The notes beneath the pieces are model-generated. The model was not told the origin of the DNA, made no database searches, and was given only the letters and a program-made list of their open reading frames with translations. This document shows positions 7,606 through 16,848 of a DNA stretch of 64,000 bases, piece after piece. Source of the stretch: Bacteroidaceae bacterium (lineage in GTDB: Bacteria > Bacteroidota > Bacteroidia > Bacteroidales > Bacteroidaceae). The DNA is taken from contig JAFUWG010000054.1 in NCBI GenBank assembly GCA_017483605.1, forward strand, positions 1-64,000. Direction: 5' to 3'. Position numbers and translations under genes: made by a program. How positions within the stretch are numbered: the stretch's first letter is position 1; the number at the start of each line of letters is the position of its first letter.

Positions 7606-9507
7606 ATGGAACCTCTCAAACATGAATGTGGCGTGGCGATGATTCGCCTACTCAAGCCCCTTTCCTACTATCAAGAGAAATATGGTACGTGGATGTACGG
7701 GCTCAACAAACTCTACCTCCTCATGGAGAAACAGCACAACCGAGGACAGGAAGGGGCAGGACTCGCCTCGACCAAACTTGCGGCACTCCCTGGCGAAGAG
7801 TACATGTTTCGCGAACGTGCCCTCGGCAGCGGTGCCATCACCGAGATTTTCCAGCATGTGAATGAGCAACTCAAGGCTTACACTTCCGAACAACTTGCCG
7901 ATGCCGATTTTGCCCAACGCCACCTGCCCTTTGCCGGAGAAATCTATATGGGACACCTCCGTTACTCCACCACAGGCAAAAGCGGAATCGCCCATGTACA
8001 TCCCTTCATGCGTCGCAATAACTGGCGTGCCAAAAACCTCTGTCTTTGTGGCAATTTCAACCTCACCAACGTTGATGAAGTGTTCGATGACATCACCTCC
8101 AAAGGGCAGCACCCACGCATCTACAACGACACCTACATCATGCTCGAGATGATGGGGCATCGGCTCGACCGTGAGAGCGAACGCATCTACAACATTGCCC
8201 AAGAGAGAGGACTCACAGGCACAGCCATCACCGACTTCATCGAGGAGAACATCGACATTGCCAACATTCTTCGCACCTCCACACCTCTCTTCGATGGAGG
8301 TTACGTGCTGTGCGGCTTCACAGGCAGTGGCGAAATGTTCTCCATGCGTGACCCGTGGGGCATCCGTCCCGCCTTCTGGTATCAGGATGAGGAAGTGCTT
8401 GTCGTCGCCTCCGAACGACCTGTCATCCAAACCACGTTCGACGTGGAGACTGACAGCATCCACGAATTGCAAGCGGGTACAGCACTCATTGTCCGCAAGA
8501 ACGGCACCGTCCGTCTCACCCCGATTCTTCCACCTCAAGGCAACCACGCCTGTTCTTTCGAACGCATCTACTTCAGCCGAGGAAGCGACCGAGACATTTA
8601 CCGTGAACGCAAAGCCCTTGGCGAACAACTCACCCCACAGGTAGAAACCGCCATCGGTGGCGACCTCGAGCATACCGTCTTCAGTTACATCCCCAACACT
8701 GCCGAAGTTGCCTTCTACGGACTTCTCGACGGTTTCAAGAAAAAACTCAACGAAGAAAAGGTTGAACAACTCTTCCAACTCACGCAGGATCATCAGCCTA
8801 CGAAGGAAGAGATACGTGGTATCCTGCATAATTACGTGCGGAGCGAGAAAGTTGCCATCAAGGACATCAAACTACGCACTTTCATCACCGAAAGCAACCA
8901 ACGCAACGACCTTGCTGCCCACGTGTACGACATCACATACGGTTCCCTTCGTCCCTACGAGGATAATCTGGTCATCATCGACGACTCCATCGTGCGAGGC
9001 ACTACCCTTCGCGAAAGCATCCTCCGCATTCTCGACCGCCTCCACCCCAAGAAGATTGTCCTCGTCAGTTCCTGTCCTCAGGTTCGCTACCCCGACTACT
9101 ACGGCATCGACATGTCACGCATGGACGACTTCATTGCCTTCCGTGCTGCCATCGAACTTCACATCCAGCAGGGCAACTGGCAAATCATCCACGACGTCTA
9201 TCTGAAGTGTGTCGCACAGAAAGACCTGCCTGCCCAGCAGATGCACAACTATGTGTGTGACATCTATGCTCCATTCACCCCCGAAGAAATCTCCGAGAAG
9301 ATGCTCGACATGCTTCGTCCAGAAGGCATGACGACACCTCTGCAACTCGTTTATCAGTCACTCGAAGGACTGCACACCGCCTGTCCCCACCATCCTGGCG
9401 ACTGGTACTTCAGCGGCAACTACCCCACCCCTGGCGGTGTTCGGCTGGTCAATCAAGCCTACATCGACTGGTATGAAAACCGACAATCACAGAACAAACC
9501 ATCATAG
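7606..9507 (+). CDS. Amidophosphoribosyltransferase (PurF)-like protein
   Basis: Predicted glutamine amidotransferase fused to a phosphoribosyltransferase. I start it at ATG 7606 (MEPLKHECGVAMIRL), because upstream codons overlap dapL. Cys8 would become the N-terminal nucleophile after propeptide removal. HNRGQEGAG and MGHLRYSTTG are class II amidotransferase motifs; NLVIIDDSIVRGTTLRESI is the classical PRPP loop near residue 458. At 633 residues it is about 150 longer than ordinary PurF, with an extended C-terminus. It may be a second, Bacteroidetes-type PurF rather than the main purine enzyme; its real acceptor is not shown by sequence. It sits 31 bases after dapL and 8 before pyrG. Confidence 0.85.
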   Translation: MEPLKHECGVAMIRLLKPLSYYQEKYGTWMYGLNKLYLLMEKQHNRGQEGAGLASTKLAALPGEEYMFRERALGSGAITEIFQHVNEQLKAYTSEQLADADFAQRHLPFAGEIYMGHLRYSTTGKSGIAHVHPFMRRNNWRAKNLCLCGNFNLTNVDEVFDDITSKGQHPRIYNDTYIMLEMMGHRLDRESERIYNIAQERGLTGTAITDFIEENIDIANILRTSTPLFDGGYVLCGFTGSGEMFSMRDPWGIRPAFWYQDEEVLVVASERPVIQTTFDVETDSIHELQAGTALIVRKNGTVRLTPILPPQGNHACSFERIYFSRGSDRDIYRERKALGEQLTPQVETAIGGDLEHTVFSYIPNTAEVAFYGLLDGFKKKLNEEKVEQLFQLTQDHQPTKEEIRGILHNYVRSEKVAIKDIKLRTFITESNQRNDLAAHVYDITYGSLRPYEDNLVIIDDSIVRGTTLRESILRILDRLHPKKIVLVSSCPQVRYPDYYGIDMSRMDDFIAFRAAIELHIQQGNWQIIHDVYLKCVAQKDLPAQQMHNYVCDIYAPFTPEEISEKMLDMLRPEGMTTPLQLVYQSLEGLHTACPHHPGDWYFSGNYPTPGGVRLVNQAYIDWYENRQSQNKPS

Positions 9508-9515
9508 TAAAAGCA

Positions 9516-11105
9516 ATGAACACGAAATACATCTTCGTCACGGGAGGCGTTGTGTCCTCCCTCGGGAAAGGCATCATCTCCGCCAGCATCGGCAAACTCC
9601 TTCAGGCACGTGGCTACAAAGTCACCATCCAGAAGTTCGACCCCTACATCAACATCGACCCCGGCACACTCAACCCCTACGAGCACGGTGAGTGTTACGT
9701 CACTGCCGACGGCATGGAGACCGACCTTGACCTCGGGCACTACGAGCGATTCACCGACATTCAAACCACCCGCAACAACTCCATCACCACCGGACGCATC
9801 TACAAGACCGTCATCGACCGTGAGCGTCACGGCGACTATCTCGGCAAGACCATCCAAGTCGTCCCGCACATCACCGACGAAATCAAGCATCGGATGCTCC
9901 GAGAGGGCTTGGAAGAAGGACTTGACTTTGTCATCACCGAGGTGGGCGGAACCATCGGCGACATCGAGAGTGCCCCTTTCATGGAAGCCATCCGACAACT
10001 GCGTTGGCAACTGGGCAGGGATGCCGTCTGTGTGCATCTCACTTACGTGCCCTATCTGAAAGCCGCCGACGAACTCAAGACCAAACCCACTCAGCACTCC
10101 GTCAAGGAACTGCAGAGCATGGGCATCCAGCCAGACATTCTCGTTCTGCGTACCGAGCGACACCTGGACGATTCCCTCCGCATGAAGGTCGCTTCTTTCT
10201 GCAACGTTGACCTCGAATGTGTCGTGCAGAGCGAAGACATGCCCAGCATCTACGAAGTACCCGTCAGTATGCAACGCCAAGGGCTCGATGCCGCCATCAT
10301 GCGGAAAATCGGCATCCCTGTAGGAGAGACACCCGCCATGAGACCTTGGCACGACTTCCTCCATCTGCAACAAGAGGCTAAAGCAGAAGTCCACATTGGG
10401 CTCGTCGGCAAGTACGACCTTCAAGATGCCTACAAATCCATCCGCGAGAGCCTACACCTTGCCGCCATCTACGGCGGTCGGAAGGCACAGCTCCACTTCG
10501 TCAATAGCGAAGCCATCACCCCCGACAACATAGCAGAGAAATTGGAAGGACTTTCGGGCGTCATCATTTGTCCGGGATTTGGGCAACGTGGCATCGAAGG
10601 CAAAATTACCGCTATTCAGTACACACGAACCCACGGCATCCCCACCTTTGGCATCTGCCTCGGAATGCAGATGATGGTCATCGAGTTTGCGCGCAATGTG
10701 CTCGGTCACACCGATGCCCACAGCACCGAGATGAATCCCCAGACATCGCACCCCGTCATCGACCTGATGGAAGAGCAGAAGCACATCACAGGCATGGGAG
10801 GCACGATGCGTCTTGGAGCATACGACTGCCATCTGCGAGAGGACAGCAAGGTGCGTTCCATCTACGGAAAGTCCGACATCAAGGAGCGTCATCGCCACCG
10901 CTACGAATTCAACAACCACTATCTTTCCGACTTCGAAAGTCACGGAATGCAATGTGTCGGCACCAACCCCACGGGCAATCTGGTCGAAGTGGTTGAACTG
11001 CCCGACCACCCTTGGTTCATCGGCACTCAGTTCCATCCTGAATACACCTCTACGGTTCTCCACCCTCATCCGCTTTTCCTCGACTTCGTCAAAGCCTGCA
11101 TCTAA
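9516..11105 (+). CDS. pyrG: CTP synthase (glutamine hydrolysing)
   Basis: Makes CTP from UTP, ATP and glutamine. The 529-residue protein has the N-terminal synthetase domain starting KYIFVTGGVVSSLGKGI with its phosphate-binding loop, the metal and nucleotide motif QKFDPYINIDPGTLNPYEHGE, and a C-terminal class I amidotransferase domain with the nucleophile in FGICLGMQMM and the HPEY histidine-glutamate pair close to the C-terminus. The start is 8 bases after the PurF-like stop, which argues for one transcript. The next gene, dapF, is convergent, with 31 bases between the stop codons. Confidence 0.97.
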   Translation: MNTKYIFVTGGVVSSLGKGIISASIGKLLQARGYKVTIQKFDPYINIDPGTLNPYEHGECYVTADGMETDLDLGHYERFTDIQTTRNNSITTGRIYKTVIDRERHGDYLGKTIQVVPHITDEIKHRMLREGLEEGLDFVITEVGGTIGDIESAPFMEAIRQLRWQLGRDAVCVHLTYVPYLKAADELKTKPTQHSVKELQSMGIQPDILVLRTERHLDDSLRMKVASFCNVDLECVVQSEDMPSIYEVPVSMQRQGLDAAIMRKIGIPVGETPAMRPWHDFLHLQQEAKAEVHIGLVGKYDLQDAYKSIRESLHLAAIYGGRKAQLHFVNSEAITPDNIAEKLEGLSGVIICPGFGQRGIEGKITAIQYTRTHGIPTFGICLGMQMMVIEFARNVLGHTDAHSTEMNPQTSHPVIDLMEEQKHITGMGGTMRLGAYDCHLREDSKVRSIYGKSDIKERHRHRYEFNNHYLSDFESHGMQCVGTNPTGNLVEVVELPDHPWFIGTQFHPEYTSTVLHPHPLFLDFVKACI

Positions 11106-11136
11106 CCCCAATCGGCAATGAATGCTCATCAAGGCA

Positions 11137-11991
11137 TCACAGCGTGATTTCTCCCTCGAAGGAAATGACAGCCGGTCCCGTCATGAGGATATGATTGTCG
11201 GCGTCGTTCCAATGGATGTGAAGCGTGCCGCCGTCCATGCGGATATCGCTCTGTCGCCCTGCCCGACCCGTCAGATGTGCCGCCACGGCTGTGGCACAGG
11301 CACCCGTACCACAGGCGAGGGTGATGCCCGATCCACGTTCCCACACCCGCATACGGAACGTGTCTTCCTCCGTAATTTGGGCAAACTCAATGTTGCATCG
11401 TTGAGGGAAGATGGCGGCATGTTCGAGCAGAGGGCCATAGTGGTCAACGGGAAAGTGTTCCACGTCTTCGTTGAGGAAGATGACAAAATGCGGATTGCCC
11501 ATCGAAACGAAAGTGCCGACGAACGTGCGTCCATCTGCCGTTACCTCATAGTCGGTAGCACCGCCGCCGCAAGGAGTGAATTGATGGGCATCTTTCAGAA
11601 TCGGCTCACCCATATCGACCGTGACGGCATCGACCTTGTTTTCCTCGTCAAGATGGAGTTGCAGAATCTTGATGCCCGAGAGGGTTTCAAGGCGAATGGG
11701 ATTCTTGCGAGTCACCCCCTTGTCGTGGAGATATTTCGCCACACAGCGAGTCCCATTGCCACACATCATCGCCTCCGAGCCGTCATTGTTGAAAATACGC
11801 ATGGAAAAGTCGGCATCAGGACGGGTTGGAGCACCAATCAGAATGAGCCCGTCACTGCCAATACCGAAGTGCGGTTTGCTCCAAGCGATGGAAGTAGCCG
11901 AAGGGTCAGGTATATTATATAATAATGTGTTGACATAAATGTAGTCATTACCTGCCCCTTGCATTTTAGTGAAATGAATGGTTTGTTTCAT
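11137..11991 (-). CDS. dapF: Diaminopimelate epimerase
   Basis: Isomerises LL- to meso-diaminopimelate without cofactor, supplying lysine synthesis and peptidoglycan. The 284-residue protein opens with [15 protein letters not shown] and has both catalytic cysteines: one in [14 protein letters not shown] and one in [16 protein letters not shown] 11991 is supported by a minus-strand -7 box TACCTTTG (complement of 12023-12030), leaving a leader of about 25 bases. The gene converges on pyrG. It acts directly after DapL, encoded in the opposite operon. Confidence 0.96.
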
Positions 11992-12155
11992 TTTGTGTCA
12001 GCATTTTCTTTGTTTCGATGTACAAAGGTAAGCATTTCTGTTGATTTACATAGCAAAAAGAAAGCGTTTTGTGAATATTTCTTGACTCAAATCAAAATAA
12101 TAGCACTTTTCGCAACTTTATTGACATTTTGCTTGCTCAAACAAAGAAAACGCTT

Positions 12156-12163
12156 TACCTTTG
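12156..12163 (+). promoter_or_regulatory. -7 box of the glnK-amt leader transcript
   Basis: TACCTTTG fits TAnnTTTG exactly, with a TTG at 12133-12135 twenty bases upstream. Transcription would start near 12170, giving a leader of about 285 bases before glnK. This is far longer than the other leaders in the window except that of upxY. Confidence 0.65.
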
Positions 12164-12191
12164 CATCAAAATTAAAAACAAGACGAACATT

Positions 12192-12317
12192 ATGACATCC
12201 GAAAGAAGATATTTCACGGCCAATCTGCAGAGCCAGCAGAATCAGCGGCAGAACCTGAATCAGAATCAGGCTCTGAATTGCTTGTTGTGTAAATCTTCCA
12301 GCCGGATGGGCACATAG
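12192..12317 (+). CDS. Glutamine-rich leader peptide of the glnK-amt operon (predicted)
   Basis: A 41-codon ORF beginning MTSERRYFTANLQ lies wholly inside the glnK leader, about 20 bases after the predicted transcription start. Residues 13-26 contain seven glutamines, all CAG (codons 13, 15, 16, 18, 20, 24, 26), and six asparagines fall in residues 11-29. It ends at TAG 12315-12317, 137 bases before glnK. I know of no domain of this kind. The codon bias, its position before an intrinsic terminator and the nitrogen-assimilation genes downstream fit a regulatory leader peptide whose translation reports charged tRNA-Gln. Upstream in-frame codons to 12129 precede the promoter and are ignored. The function is inference. 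Confidence 0.6.
   Translation: MTSERRYFTANLQSQQNQRQNLNQNQALNCLLCKSSSRMGT
12249..12275 (+). promoter_or_regulatory. Hairpin over the glutamine codons (attenuator segment 1)
   Basis: CAGAACCTGA (12249-12258) pairs with TCAGGCTCTG (12266-12275) at nine of ten positions. The hairpin spans codons 20-28 of the leader peptide, so a ribosome in the CAG run would melt or mask it. Downstream, CCAGCC (12298-12303) is complementary to GGCTGG (12374-12379) in the left arm of the terminator and is a candidate antiterminator, though only six bases long. Confidence 0.45.
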
Positions 12318-12369
12318 AAATCAAGCACAAAAATAAAACACAATGCACAAGCACAAAATAAACACAAGA

Positions 12370-12412
12370 AGGAGGCTGGTTCGAAATGAGCGAATCAGCC
12401 TCCTCTCTTTTT
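12370..12412 (+). terminator. Intrinsic terminator / attenuator before glnK
   Basis: AGGAGGCTGGTTCG (12370-12383) pairs with CGAATCAGCCTCCT (12391-12404) over 14 positions, one a G-U pair, with a 7-base loop. CTC and five T residues follow (12408-12412). It lies between the leader peptide and the glnK ATG, so it can end transcription before the structural genes. Confidence 0.75.
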
Positions 12413-12454
12413 CGAGAACACATCAATTCATTTATTAACAAAAACAAAGACACA

Positions 12455-12802
12455 ATGAAAAAGATTGAAGCAATCATCCGCAAGACCAAGTTCGAGGATG
12501 TGAAAGAAGCATTGTTGCAGTCGGACATCGACTGGTTTGAGTACCACAATGTGCACGGTATCGGACAGAGCCGCGAGGAGCGTATCTACCGTGGCGTGCA
12601 ATACAGCACCGACGTGATAGAGCGCGTGGCACTGACCATCGTTTGCCGCGACCAGTTTGTGGAACCGACCGTGAACGTCATCCTCGAGGTGGCACACACA
12701 GGCGAAATCGGCGACGGACGCATCTTCGTGAGCGACATGATTGACACATGGAGCATCCGCACGGGCGAGAACGGCGACACCGTATTGAGAGACAAGAAGT
12801 AA
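12455..12802 (+). CDS. glnK: Nitrogen regulatory protein P-II (GlnK type)
   Basis: Small trimeric signal protein that binds ATP/ADP and 2-oxoglutarate and, when paired with Amt, blocks the ammonium channel in nitrogen-rich cells. I start at ATG 12455 (MKKIEAIIRKTKFEDVKEAL), the canonical P-II N-terminus; the longer frame runs into the attenuator. The 115-residue product has the T-loop GIGQSREERIYRGVQYS, one residue shorter than E. coli GlnB, so Tyr50 corresponds to the uridylylated Tyr51 and Tyr45 to Tyr46. The B-loop TGEIGDGRIFV and C-loop IRTGENGD are intact. amt follows after 46 bases, the standard glnK-amt pairing. Confidence 0.95.
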   Translation: MKKIEAIIRKTKFEDVKEALLQSDIDWFEYHNVHGIGQSREERIYRGVQYSTDVIERVALTIVCRDQFVEPTVNVILEVAHTGEIGDGRIFVSDMIDTWSIRTGENGDTVLRDKK

Positions 12803-12848
12803 CACAAGTTAGTCACAACACACAAGAAACACAAAAACACAAAACATT

Positions 12849-14105
12849 ATGAACGAAATTGGATTATCACTCGATACCGTATGGATGCTATTGGCAGCCA
12901 TGTTAGTTTTCTGGATGCAACCAGGTTTTGCCCTCTGCGAAGCCGGATTCACGCGGAGCAAGAACGCCGCCAACATCCTGATGAAAAACTTTGTCGATTT
13001 CATGCTCGGCTCACTGCTGTTCTTCTTTGTCGGCTTCGGCATCATGTTCGGCAGCGACATCTTGGGCGGTTTCATCGGTATGCCCAACTGGGGCGACCTC
13101 TCGTTCTACACGAGCGACCTGCCCGTTGAAGGTTTCCTGATTTTCGAGACCGTCTTCTGTGCCACCTCCGCCACCATCGTGAGCGGTGCAATGGCTGAAC
13201 GCACCAAGTTCTCGATGTATCTGGTTTACAGCGCCTTCATCTCCCTCATCATTTATCCCGTGGAAGGTCACTGGACATGGGGTGGCGGTTGGCTTTGCAA
13301 CGATGCTGCCGACTCTTTCATGATGAGCACCTTCGGCGACGTGTTCCACGACTTTGCAGGTTCTGCCATCGTACACAGCGTGGGCGGCGTGCTCGCTCTC
13401 ATCGGTGCTTTGGCACTCGGACCTCGTCTGGGCAAGTACGGAAAAGACGGCAAGAGCCGCGCTATTCCTGGTCACAACCTGACATTGGCAGCTCTGGGTG
13501 TCTTCATCCTCTGGCTCGGCTGGTTCGGTTTTAACCCCGGCAGTCAGTTGGCAGCCAGCGGCGAGGTGAACCGCACAGCCATCTCCCACGTGTTCCTCAC
13601 CACCAACTTGGCAGCCGTATCGGGCGGCGTGGCTACGATGTTCCTCACTTGGCTCAAATACGGCAAACCCTCTCTCTCGCTGACCCTCAACGGCATCTTG
13701 GCTGGTCTCGTGGGCATCACGGCAGGTTGCGACCTCGTTTCTCCTATCGGAGCGGTTATCATCGGTCTCGTTTGCGGCGCCGTATTGGTCTTCGCCATTG
13801 AGTTCATCGACCACAAACTGCACATCGACGATCCTGTAGGTGCTTCCAGCGTACACGGCGTATGCGGTATTCTCGGCACCCTCATGACGGGCTTGCTCTC
13901 CACAAGCAACGGTGCATTCTACGGTCACGGATGGGGATTCTTCGGAGCAGAACTGTTTGGCATCCTCGTCATCGACCTCTGGGCAGCAGCCTGCGGTTTC
14001 GTTCTCTTCTATGGCATCAAGAAGTTGCACGGTCTCCGCGTGGATGCTCGCATCGAGGAAGAAGGTCTTGACATTTACGAGCACGGAGAGAGTTGCTACA
14101 ATTAA
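12849..14105 (+). CDS. amt: Ammonium transporter (Amt/MEP family)
   Basis: Inner membrane channel conducting ammonium or ammonia. The 418-residue protein has about 11 membrane segments, the Amt signature stretch around CEAGFTRSKNAANILMKNF, and the two pore histidines in SAIVHSVGG and SSVHGVCG. The C-terminal tail (EEEGLDIYEHGE) is the cytoplasmic helix that contacts P-II proteins. Its partner glnK lies 46 bases upstream and both would be under the glutamine-codon leader. No signal peptide is cleaved in obvious fashion; the N-terminus enters the first membrane helix directly. Confidence 0.96.
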   Translation: MNEIGLSLDTVWMLLAAMLVFWMQPGFALCEAGFTRSKNAANILMKNFVDFMLGSLLFFFVGFGIMFGSDILGGFIGMPNWGDLSFYTSDLPVEGFLIFETVFCATSATIVSGAMAERTKFSMYLVYSAFISLIIYPVEGHWTWGGGWLCNDAADSFMMSTFGDVFHDFAGSAIVHSVGGVLALIGALALGPRLGKYGKDGKSRAIPGHNLTLAALGVFILWLGWFGFNPGSQLAASGEVNRTAISHVFLTTNLAAVSGGVATMFLTWLKYGKPSLSLTLNGILAGLVGITAGCDLVSPIGAVIIGLVCGAVLVFAIEFIDHKLHIDDPVGASSVHGVCGILGTLMTGLLSTSNGAFYGHGWGFFGAELFGILVIDLWAAACGFVLFYGIKKLHGLRVDARIEEEGLDIYEHGESCYN

Positions 14106-14154
14106 GATGTGAATACACAAAAGGTCACAACACAAACACAAAGTAAAACACAAA

Positions 14155-14883
14155 ATGGAAACAAAGATGAAAAAGGTAAAAGGATTGTTCCTCACGGCAA
14201 CGCTGCTCTTCGGGGCAGTCGCCGTAGAGGCTCAGGAAACAAAGGTGGAAACAACCGTGGAAGCGGATGTGGTGAACCAATACATCTGGCGTGGCCAGGA
14301 GTTAGGCAATGTGTCCTTCCAACCCACATTGGGCATCGACTACAAGGGCTTGTCGCTCTCGGCATGGGGCAGCGTAGGGCTGACCGACCCCAACGACACC
14401 AAGGAATTTGACCTCACGCTCAGTTACAGCACAGGCGGTTTCAACATCGGCGTGACAGATTATTGGTTCAACGCTGGTCTCGACCCTAAAGGACGCTACT
14501 TCAAATATGACGCCCACGAAACGAACCACGTCTTCGAGGCAAATGTCGGTTACGATTTTGGAGTGGTCAGCCTCCAGTGGTACACCAACTTTGCTGGCAA
14601 CGACGGACTGACCAAGAAGGGGAAGCGGGCTTACAGTTCTTACTTTGAAGTGTCGGCACCTTTCAAACTCGCCGCCATCGACTGGACAGCAACAGCAGGT
14701 GCGGTGCCCTACGCCACCGACTTCTACGGCACGAACGGTTTTGCCGTGACCAACCTCTCATTGACTGCCACGAAGGAGATCCGAGTGACGGACACGTTCA
14801 GCATCCCTATCTTCGGGCAAATCGCAACGAATCCGTGCAGTCAAAAAGCCTATTTAGTGTTTGGATTTTCATTGCGTCCATAA
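14155..14883 (+). CDS. Outer membrane beta-barrel-like protein downstream of amt
   Basis: A 242-residue exported protein. The signal peptide is MKKVKGLFLTATLLFGAVAVEA followed by QE; a second ATG at 14167 gives the more usual MKK start, so either start is possible. The mature part has alternating polar and hydrophobic strands, many aromatic residues and a C-terminal strand ending YLVFGFSLRP, as in small porin-like barrels. It resembles what I remember of the TorF-like putative porins found near amt genes. It follows amt by 49 bases and ends at a strong terminator, so it probably helps ammonium or another nitrogen source cross the outer membrane. That role is inference. Confidence 0.75.
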   Translation: METKMKKVKGLFLTATLLFGAVAVEAQETKVETTVEADVVNQYIWRGQELGNVSFQPTLGIDYKGLSLSAWGSVGLTDPNDTKEFDLTLSYSTGGFNIGVTDYWFNAGLDPKGRYFKYDAHETNHVFEANVGYDFGVVSLQWYTNFAGNDGLTKKGKRAYSSYFEVSAPFKLAAIDWTATAGAVPYATDFYGTNGFAVTNLSLTATKEIRVTDTFSIPIFGQIATNPCSQKAYLVFGFSLRP

Positions 14884-14896
14884 AATTCAAACCTAC

Positions 14897-14935
14897 GCCC
14901 CCTCTTCCTGCCCCATAGGGGAAGAGGGGGCTTTC
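14897..14935 (+). terminator. Terminator after the glnK-amt operon
   Basis: GCCCCCTCTTCC (14897-14908) pairs perfectly with GGAAGAGGGGGC (14920-14931), followed by TTTCTT. It closes the operon 14 bases after the porin-like stop codon. Confidence 0.8.
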
Positions 14936-15082
14936 TTATGACCTTTTCCTTTTGGACAAATAACGACTCTAAAAACACACCAAAACATCACTTTTCTTCC
15001 CTAAACGCCCAAAAGCAAGACAAAATAACGCTAAAATCTTAAAATTATTATCAGATTGTATTGTAATTAAATAATTTTATTG

Positions 15083-15090
15083 TAATTTTG
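15083..15090 (+). promoter_or_regulatory. -7 box of the asnB promoter
   Basis: TAATTTTG lies 66 bases before the asnB start in an A+T-rich intergenic stretch (14936-15156). No other gene or structure is seen there. Confidence 0.6.
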
Positions 15091-15156
15091 CAACCAAATT
15101 AAACACAACTTAAAACATTTTGATTTTCAAACAATCATTATAATAACAAAAAAAAC

Positions 15157-16848
15157 ATGTGCGGATTTGTAGCAATACTCAAGATGAAAGGCGATGCTCA
15201 GAAAAAGCGAGAGCAGGCGCTGAAGATGTCGGCAAAGATTCGGCATAGAGGTCCCGACTGGAGCGGGGTTTATAGCAGTGAAAAGGCTGTGCTGGCACAT
15301 GAGCGGTTGGCGATTGTTGACCCTCTTTCTGGCGGACAACCACTCTACTCACCAGATGGCAAGAAGGTGCTGGCGGTGAACGGCGAGATATATAATCATC
15401 AGTTATTGCGTGAGGAGACAAAAGATTCGTTCCAATACAAGACCGGCTCTGACTGCGAGGTCATTCTGGCTCTCTACGAACGGTATGGTGTTGACTTTAT
15501 CGACCGTCTGAACGGCATTTTTTCTTTTGTACTCTACGACTCCACCACCGACGACTACCTGATTGCCCGCGACCCCATGGGTGTCATTCCGCTCTACATC
15601 GGGCACGACAAGGACGGCACCGTGTATGCAGCCAGCGAACTGAAGGCTTTGGAGGGTCAATGCGACTCGTTTGAGCCTTTCCCTCCTGGACATTTCTGCA
15701 CCAGCAAGCATGACGGAAAACCCGAACGTTGGTATCAGCGTGACTGGTTCAAGTATGACGGAATGCAGTGGTCAACTTCCGACCGCAAGGAAGCGGTGCA
15801 GATGGTGAAAGAAGGGCTGATGGCAGCGGTGAAGCGTCAGTTGATGAGCGACGTGCCCTACGGTGTCTTGCTGTCGGGAGGTCTCGACAGTTCGGTGGTG
15901 TCAGCCATCGCCAAATTGTACTCGGCAAAACGTATCGAGACGAACGACCAGCACGATGCGTGGTGGCCACGTCTGCACTCGTTTGCCGTCGGTCTGAAAG
16001 GTGCGCCCGACCTGTCGAAAGCCCGTGAAGTGGCAGAGCACATCGGCACGGTGCATCACGAGGTGAACTATACCATTCAGGAGGGTTTGGATGCCATTCG
16101 CGATGTGATTTATTACACAGAGACCTACGACGTGACCACCGTGAGGGCATCCACGCCGATGTATCTGTTGGCGAGGGTCATCCGAAGCATGGGCATCAAG
16201 ATGGTGTTGAGCGGCGAGGGTGCCGATGAGATTTTCGGTGGATACCTCTACTTCCACAAGGCACCCGACGCACAGGCATTCCACGAAGAGACCGTGAGGA
16301 AACTGAGCAAACTCCACTTCTATGACTGCCTGCGTGCCAACAAATCGCTCATGGCATGGGGCATCGAAGGACGTGTACCTTTCCTTGACAAAGAATTCCT
16401 CGACGTGGCCATGCGCATCGACCCCGCCCTGAAGATGTGTCCAGGAAAGACGATGGAAAAAGGCGTGGTGCGTGAGGCTTTTGCCGACATGCTGCCCGAG
16501 AGCGTTGCATGGCGGCAGAAGGAGCAGTTCAGCGACGGTGTCGGCTACAGTTGGATTGACACGCTGAAAGACCTCACATCGAAACTGGTCACAGACGAAC
16601 AGATGGCACACGCCAAAGAGCGTTTCCCCATCAACCCACCGCTGAACAAAGAAGAGTATTACTATCGCAGCATCTTCGAAGAGCACTTCCCCAGCGAATC
16701 GGCGGCACGGAGTGTCAACCAAGAGGCGTCCGTGGCTTGTTCAACCGCCATTGCCCTCGAATGGGATGCCGCTTTCAAGAACATGAACGAGCCGAGCGGC
16801 AGGGCTGTGAAGGACGTGCATGAAGGATGCCCTCAAACCTCAAAATAG
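15157..16848 (+). CDS. asnB: Asparagine synthase (glutamine hydrolysing), AsnB type
   Basis: Converts aspartate, ATP and glutamine to asparagine. The 563-residue protein begins MCGFVAIL, so Cys2 becomes the N-terminal nucleophile of the class II amidotransferase domain; RHRGPDWSGVY and VNGEIYNH are typical. The synthetase domain has the ATP pyrophosphatase loop LLSGGLDSSVVSAIAKL near residue 234 and the family stretch LSGEGADEIFGGY. It has its own promoter and is followed by repeat copy B. It is one of five glutamine amidotransferases encoded in the first 25 kb. Confidence 0.96.
   Translation: MCGFVAILKMKGDAQKKREQALKMSAKIRHRGPDWSGVYSSEKAVLAHERLAIVDPLSGGQPLYSPDGKKVLAVNGEIYNHQLLREETKDSFQYKTGSDCEVILALYERYGVDFIDRLNGIFSFVLYDSTTDDYLIARDPMGVIPLYIGHDKDGTVYAASELKALEGQCDSFEPFPPGHFCTSKHDGKPERWYQRDWFKYDGMQWSTSDRKEAVQMVKEGLMAAVKRQLMSDVPYGVLLSGGLDSSVVSAIAKLYSAKRIETNDQHDAWWPRLHSFAVGLKGAPDLSKAREVAEHIGTVHHEVNYTIQEGLDAIRDVIYYTETYDVTTVRASTPMYLLARVIRSMGIKMVLSGEGADEIFGGYLYFHKAPDAQAFHEETVRKLSKLHFYDCLRANKSLMAWGIEGRVPFLDKEFLDVAMRIDPALKMCPGKTMEKGVVREAFADMLPESVAWRQKEQFSDGVGYSWIDTLKDLTSKLVTDEQMAHAKERFPINPPLNKEEYYYRSIFEEHFPSESAARSVNQEASVACSTAIALEWDAAFKNMNEPSGRAVKDVHEGCPQTSK

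Follow-up and report, generated by a model that had tools for sequence, protein, structure and literature searches.

The classical ribosome-mediated attenuators are the trp, his, ilv, and thr leaders. The leader described here, which lies in front of a glnK-amt operon of a Prevotella-like bacterium, resembles them in having control codons in a short ORF, a putative antiterminator that competes with a terminator, and downstream genes that supply the amino acid concerned. It differs from them in its apparent specificity for glutamine and asparagine, in preceding several operons (those of ammonium uptake and assimilation and of enzymes that use glutamine), in the predicted location of the antiterminator strand, region 2, in a hairpin loop, and in its occurrence in the Bacteroidales. 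We regard the proposed specificity, multi-operon nitrogen regulon, and loop-presented strand as new, attenuation of the trp and his type being known.

The cyanobacterial glutamine riboswitch (glnA RNA) is an aptamer RNA that, in contrast to our leader, has no control-codon ORF. The Bacteroid-trp motif (RF01692), presumably a Trp attenuator, shares with the leader the status of a candidate cis-regulatory RNA in Bacteroidetes, but it has no match in the window (the whole 64,000-nucleotide stretch of Bacteroidaceae DNA analyzed here) or at the five leader loci searched. Indeed, at gathering score the window has no Rfam match, with the glutamine riboswitch families (glnA and Downstream-peptide), T-box, and RF01692 all included. 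The five leader loci, searched up to E 0.5, gave seven sub-threshold matches, all to unrelated families and none to glnA/Downstream-peptide, T-box, or RF01692; a single one overlaps a leader (MicX, E 0.45, on the opposite strand of the asnB leader L234). RF01692 is tabulated in the portion of PMC2864571 available to us, and leader peptide attenuation has been suspected in Bacteroidota transcriptomes (PMC9723704, PMC7366714). As far as the accessible parts of the latter two papers go, their cases resemble ours in that attenuation is proposed for short ORFs or structured 5′ regions, but they concern amino acid biosynthesis operons or BT_4401, with no Gln/Asn leader and no glnK-amt. The first-pass annotation of this DNA knew of no described attenuator of this type for glnK-amt. 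Our search agrees: in the accessible text of the literature covered, which included PMC9723704, PMC4833913, PMC7366714, PMC2864571, PMC8632094, PMC11109978, PMC5552732, and PMC2965389 and left most subscription papers and all bioRxiv preprints outside its scope, we found neither such an attenuator nor any Bacteroidota leader peptide for Gln or Asn.

In the window, the leader and the genes that follow it lie on the + strand. A −7 promoter element, TACCTTTG, was recognized by inspection at 12156–12163; we take TAnnTTTG to be the Bacteroidota −7 promoter consensus. Downstream is the leader peptide ORF (uORF) of 41 codons plus a TAG stop, MTSERRYFTANLQSQQNQRQNLNQNQALNCLLCKSSSRMGT (12192–12317), the frame of which is kept in relatives. 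Its control codons, seven for Gln (all CAG) and four for Asn, fall within residues 13–26 (12228–12269). The CAG codons encode residues 13, 15, 16, 18, 20, 24, and 26, and the uORF as a whole has six Asn codons (residues 11, 17, 21, 23, 25, and 29) among and beside them. A first hairpin, P1, lies over the control codons (12249–12275; −9.6 kcal/mol when folded alone), and in a constrained fold the antiterminator strand can lie in the loop of a second, P2, at about 12286–12314. This strand, region 2, has the sequence TCCAGCC (12297–12303), of which CCAGCC (12298–12303) is complementary to GGCTGG in the left arm of the intrinsic terminator. The terminator stem has 14 bp, including one G-U (arms 12370–12383 and 12391–12404), and the region 12370–12412, which ends in T5 at 12408–12412, folds with −24.3 kcal/mol. 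The annotation had already placed the promoter, the 41-codon ORF with its seven CAG codons, the hairpin at 12249–12275, the CCAGCC strand, and the 14-bp terminator with T5, and all of these coordinates hold on the sequence; the Asn codons, P2, and the regulon are absent from it.

As was also annotated, glnK and amt follow. The first (12455–12802) encodes a PII protein with a Pfam P-II match, and the second (12849–14105) an ammonium transporter above the cut-off of NCBIfam TIGR00836. A third gene of the operon (14155–14883) encodes a protein of 242 amino acids with no Pfam match at 1e-5, probably an outer-membrane protein and possibly related to ammonium. The next gene, asnB, begins at 15157 and is asparagine synthase B by NCBIfam. 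An inverted repeat followed by T (about 14897–14935) and a TAATTTTG element (15083–15090) precede it, and it is therefore probably a separate transcription unit. In five relatives (L032, L036, L051, L085, and L094), a homologue of the 242-residue protein (43–56% identical) is encoded between the leader and glnK. Because the leader precedes this homologue where the gene order has changed, it tracks the 5′ end of the operon and not a particular gene.

We consider it highly probable that the leader is a ribosome-mediated transcription attenuator that senses charged tRNA-Gln and tRNA-Asn and controls a multi-operon nitrogen regulon. Translation, stalling, antitermination, and the direction of the response we infer as follows. 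RNA polymerase would start a few bases past the promoter element and transcribe the uORF, and P1, a putative pause hairpin, would probably hold it until a ribosome loads. With Gln and Asn plentiful, the ribosome would pass the CAG, AAT, and AAC codons, reach the stop in or beside P2, and mask region 2, so that the terminator forms and glnK-amt is off. With charged tRNA-Gln or tRNA-Asn in short supply, the ribosome would stall on the control codons and leave P2 free. The P2 loop (CCAGCC in the window, often ACCAGTC elsewhere) could then pair with the left arm of the terminator, which would not form, and ammonium import would be switched on. GlnRS and AsnRS both score above the family cut-off in nine of the nine genomes tested, so that a direct route from the free amino acids to both charged tRNAs is available.

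Comparison between genomes establishes, at the level of sequence, the conservation of the uORF, the terminator, P1, and P2, along with the complementarity, the geometry, and the association with particular genes. Within the genus of the window, glnK is present in 40 of 45 genomes, and in 16 of those 40 its operon is preceded by a Gln/Asn-rich uORF. All 16 have a TAnnTTTG element before the uORF and a GGCTGGTTC...TCAGCC terminator after it, and the CC(A/G)G strand is conserved; one genome (G006) has two leader loci at glnK. Aligning the leaders of relatives had been proposed as a check on the attenuator, and in the relatives that bear a leader the Gln/Asn uORF and terminator are indeed kept while the rest drifts, coding indels being triplets. 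Relatives without the ORF, or with frameshifts in it, had been named as evidence against it. At glnK, the leader is absent in the other 24 glnK-bearing genomes (25 glnK places), which counts in that direction; yet the whole element is missing there, not decayed. At 14 of these 25 leaderless places, TAnnTTTG lies 50–80 nt upstream of glnK. When 185 loci (some of them duplicates) were scanned with a regular expression derived from leaders already known, the terminator turned up upstream of glnK 31 times and always with a Gln/Asn-rich uORF. Leader-bearing records include two of buffalo-rumen Bacteroidales (L128 and L132), one of RUG11961 (L135), and one of UBA1189 (L137); L137 has another leader, before asnB.

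A covariance model (R1) built from 25 leaders was run over 301 genomes of the family. Since the family, order, and phylum scans scored 8–9 candidates per genome, their counts are lower bounds. At 50 bits or more, R1 found at least 65 copies in at least 36 genomes, and the next-best score (45.6 bits) covers only the terminator end of the model. Thirty-two of the 65 hits are at glnK operons. The other 33 precede asnB (13), glmS (5), gltB (5), pyrG (4), glnN (3), purF (1), a CP-ATP-grasp gene (1), and a contig end (1). One representative per target was identified by HMM (asnB L234, glmS L235, pyrG L239, gltB L240, purF L260, glnN L257, and L261), and the remaining genes were assigned by 68–97% protein identity to such a representative. 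One genome (G272) has four leaders, before glnK, glmS, asnB, and pyrG. At L257, carA is next after glnN; at L250, glnN is the first ORF of at least 80 codons, about 0.9 kb downstream of the leader. The annotated target, glnK-amt, is thus correct for the window but is not the only one, since asnB, glmS, gltB, pyrG, glnN, and purF are also preceded by the element. The recurrence of the same device before these six kinds of gene points to a nitrogen-assimilation regulon read via the tRNAs of the amide amino acids. The targets supply or use Gln or Asn, with the exception of the CP-ATP-grasp operon (L261), for which no such link is known.

Several individual loci deserve mention. At one of the 32 glnK hits (L249, genome G067), a glnK-type leader stands before an interrupted glnK and a gene whose beginning resembles that of amt; part of the operon has apparently been deleted, with the leader remaining. 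At L261 (3073–3246, minus strand), a Gln-rich leader precedes a circularly permuted ATP-grasp/alpha-E gene pair, which hints at nitrogen control of this little-understood operon; a nearly identical leader (L262, 401–520) stands at a contig end. In an asnB leader of G272 (L252), the uORF stops early, within or just past the control codons, and this leader may have lost normal control. The R1 low scorers L267–L273 (30–41 bits) were set aside for want of a Gln/Asn-rich ATG uORF, the uORF of L270 being Gln/Lys-rich with a TTG start.

Evidence that the uORF is maintained as a coding sequence comes from its reading frame. In an alignment of 30 leaders (A1), gap runs are multiples of 3 in 66 of 66 cases in columns 1–100, which reach the last control codons, compared with 29 of 191 in columns 101–222, the runs being counted per sequence and hence not all independent. 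A larger alignment (A3) holds 68 R1 matches, 63 of them distinct, and 60 leaders were used for geometry after L262, L259, and L092:1–82 were dropped. The uORF of each, taken as the ATG ORF richest in Gln+Asn, is 34–54 codons long in 57 of the 60 and has at least 7 Gln+Asn within 14 residues in all 60; of the two alternative frames, one is open in just four leaders and the other in two. In 56 of 60, a TAnnTTTG precedes the uORF start by no more than 70 nt (median 35.5 nt). The C-terminal part of the peptide shifts frame over the same RNA, ending in SSRM, LPAG, or at an earlier stop, as would be expected if this stretch acts as RNA. The core codons of the 60 leaders are AAT (367), CAG (290), AAC (75), and CAA (12), and the counts in seven genes of the window are AAT (20), AAC (92), CAG (64), and CAA (44), so that the preference for AAT among the Asn codons of the leaders is opposite to that of the genes.

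The annotation had read the locus as a glutamine attenuator. Its layout is supported by comparison and the Gln codons are confirmed, but the control codons include Asn as well. Taken further, the signal might be mainly Asn with Gln secondary, an Asn attenuator having gained Gln codons in some lineages; this is a version of the attenuator reading rather than an exclusive alternative, and we think it possible but on the unlikely side. The best 14 residues contain, on average over 60 leaders, 7.2 Asn compared with 4.5 Gln (6.6 and 1.2 in gltB leaders), and asnB is the commonest target other than glnK (13 of 33). Against this, Gln exceeds Asn in the window's genus (6.4 compared with 5.6), and most target classes produce or consume glutamine.

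The Asn-centered version draws further on a second family. With a covariance model built from A3 (R2), 344 genomes of the order yielded, at a limit of E 1e-7, at least two hits in addition to the window itself. One (L275, upstream of a glnN identified by HMM, in family f19) is real; the other (L274) was rejected as noise, having no Gln/Asn-rich uORF and an unrelated terminator. In 296 genomes of the phylum, with 8–9 candidates scored per genome, nothing beyond the window was found at E 1e-7. A scan of 20 genomes of f19 at 141 candidates per genome and a limit of E 1e-5 gave 17 hits, spread over 12 genomes, including two copies in G551 compared with one in the order scan, for which fewer candidates were scored. 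Fifteen of the 17, all in a single genus (10 genomes), combine an Asn-rich uORF with a terminator; 10 of these precede glnN and the other 5 an ammonium transporter gene (identities by HMM for glnN at L275 and Amt at L318, and read from the sequence for the others). The Amt leaders have 13–15 Asn and no Gln, and the glnN leaders 7–9 Asn, 6–7 Lys, and 0–2 Gln; the almost equal share of Lys in these glnN leaders speaks against the attenuator reading. Hence Asn is the common denominator of the leaders, with Gln prominent in the window's genus. The two other hits (L315 and L316) were set aside because they have no Gln/Asn-rich uORF. A glnN search matched 152 of 198 genomes, from which 30 loci (L276–L305) were kept; in the 31 glnN upstream regions scanned (these and L275), the element was found in L275 only, and the short uORFs of L276 and L293 reach 5 Gln or Asn in 14 residues.

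In the terminator, over the 63 distinct leaders, 99.0% of cells are paired and both sides change in 6 of 11 pairs. Of 500 shuffles, none attains this percentage, the tally of changed cells, or the score, and 57 attain the number of changed pairs. When 61 leaders are folded to one RNAalifold consensus, the terminator alone is recovered. The last control codon ends 12–46 nt (median 22) before region 2, and 12–32 nt in 58 of 60 leaders. Relative to region 2, the stop of the uORF falls between −7 and +18 nt in 53 of 60, the exceptions being five gltB leaders (+36), L051 (+30), and L252 (−29); the positions in the gltB leaders and L051 fit masking less well. Between the uORF stop and the terminator, most leaders of the window's genus have a G-poor, A/C-rich linker of 54–76 nt (30 in L051). 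Such a linker, along with the conserved uORF, might serve Rho-dependent termination, and the uORF might also act through translational coupling or through a nascent-peptide stall independent of tRNA charging. We judge this group of mechanisms improbable: the leaders keep a strong intrinsic terminator that covaries, other genera have a shorter linker of a different kind, and the peptide varies except in its density of Gln and Asn.

P1 (GAACC...GGTTC) has 86.5% of cells paired over the 63 distinct leaders and both-side changes in 6 of 8 pairs; none of 500 shuffles reaches the percentage or the score. As the registers of P2 differ between gene classes, P2 was assessed by energy rather than by column counts, in folds restricted to pairs that enclose an unpaired region 2 and compared with shuffled flanks. 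The mean over 60 leaders is −8.7 kcal/mol, compared with −3.4 kcal/mol for shuffled flanks, and 43 of the 60 fall at 5% or less (6% for the window). The stems of P2 differ among most gene classes, and region 2 can be enclosed in all 60. The conservation of P1, P2, and region 2 could also be that of a metabolite-binding riboswitch, for example for glutamine, with the ORF incidental, and according to the available text of PMC2864571 similar genes in other organisms are associated with glnA RNAs. We find this very hard to credit, given the triplet indels, the single open frame, the retention of Gln and Asn codons while the P2 stems vary between classes, and the Rfam results above (no match in the window at gathering score, and none to the glutamine riboswitch at five leader loci up to E 0.5).

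For the attenuator, the competing antiterminator is a matter of complementarity rather than of clear covariation. Four core pairs between region 2 and the left arm of the terminator are possible in 60 of the 60 rows with letters on both sides, and the putative helix can be extended 5′ in asnB leaders (TTGACCAG/CTGGTCAA) and 3′ in gltB leaders (ACCAGTCC/GGACTGGT). The covariation score of region 2 with this arm (arm 3) is not above that of shuffles, 479 of 500 of which reach it. When the duplex energies were compared with random re-pairing, 6 of 5000 trials matched them; with one row per class the result was weak (1243 of 20,000). The first-pass annotation had also suggested folding the alternative structures. 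In pseudoknot-free folds before the right arm is made, region 2 pairs with arm 3 in 35 of 60 stalled cases, the window's own leader not among them; with the ribosome at the stop, arm 3 is still paired upstream in 19 of 60. At equilibrium, the complete leader prefers the terminator in 60 of 60 cases, stalled or not, and antitermination must therefore be kinetic. The hairpin P2 around region 2 suggests that the antiterminator may be a pseudoknot between the P2 loop and the terminator arm, which ordinary folding cannot display because it is pseudoknot-free.

Shuffling and an ORF count over the whole window make a chance origin of the leader ORF unlikely. Among 3000 dinucleotide shuffles of the leader, none contained an ATG ORF that packs 10 or more Gln+Asn, 5 or more of them Gln, into 14 codons, and 16 reached at least 6 Gln; among the 667 ATG ORFs of 15–75 codons in the window, the uORF is the only one with at least 9 Gln+Asn, or at least 6 Gln, in 14. 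A functionless low-complexity ORF inherited by close relatives, from which many of the aligned leaders do come, can be dismissed almost outright on the absence of any such shuffle and on the recurrence of the element, both in a second family and ahead of seven other kinds of gene.

Nitrogen sensing in the Bacteroidota is poorly understood. If true, a Gln/Asn attenuator regulon would constitute a direct and testable mechanism for it, would add two amino acids to those known to be read by leader peptides, and would mean that attenuation is used network-wide rather than for a single pathway; its parts could also be used to build nitrogen-responsive switches for gut and rumen bacteria. A broader proposal, on which we find the balance even, is that in several genera of the Bacteroidales global nitrogen control lies with a dispersed family of tRNA-Gln/tRNA-Asn leader attenuators, instead of or in addition to a protein regulator. 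These would act jointly on ammonium uptake, Gln and Asn synthesis, and the major glutamine amidotransferases, with an H-type pseudoknot between the P2 loop and the 5′ arm of the terminator as the means of antitermination.

The nitrogen metabolism of gut systems is termed poorly studied in the accessible part of PMC5552732. There, amtB, glnK, PRU_1977, asnB, glnN-2, and gltBD of Prevotella ruminicola 23 are reported to shift 26- to 69-fold with ammonium, text and legend disagreeing on the direction, and no attenuator is named for these genes in that part of the paper; the set bears the same gene names as the leader targets. PRU_1977, a gene of unknown function in the glnK-amtB-asnB cluster, has a response to ammonium nearly as strong as that of amtB (PMC5552732, same portion); the window's 242-residue gene likewise stands in a glnK cluster.

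In the window, a purF-like gene, pyrG, glnK, amt, and asnB are clustered together at 7606–16848. In genera g24 and g30, asnB, purF, glmS, pyrG, and glnK, kinds also clustered in the window, bear such leaders. The PurF-like protein of the window (7606–9504) has about 630 amino acids and scores far under the purF cut-off (128 of 350 bits). By comparison, the PurF of L260 has 460 amino acids and scores 519 bits, the form in the window being divergent and longer.
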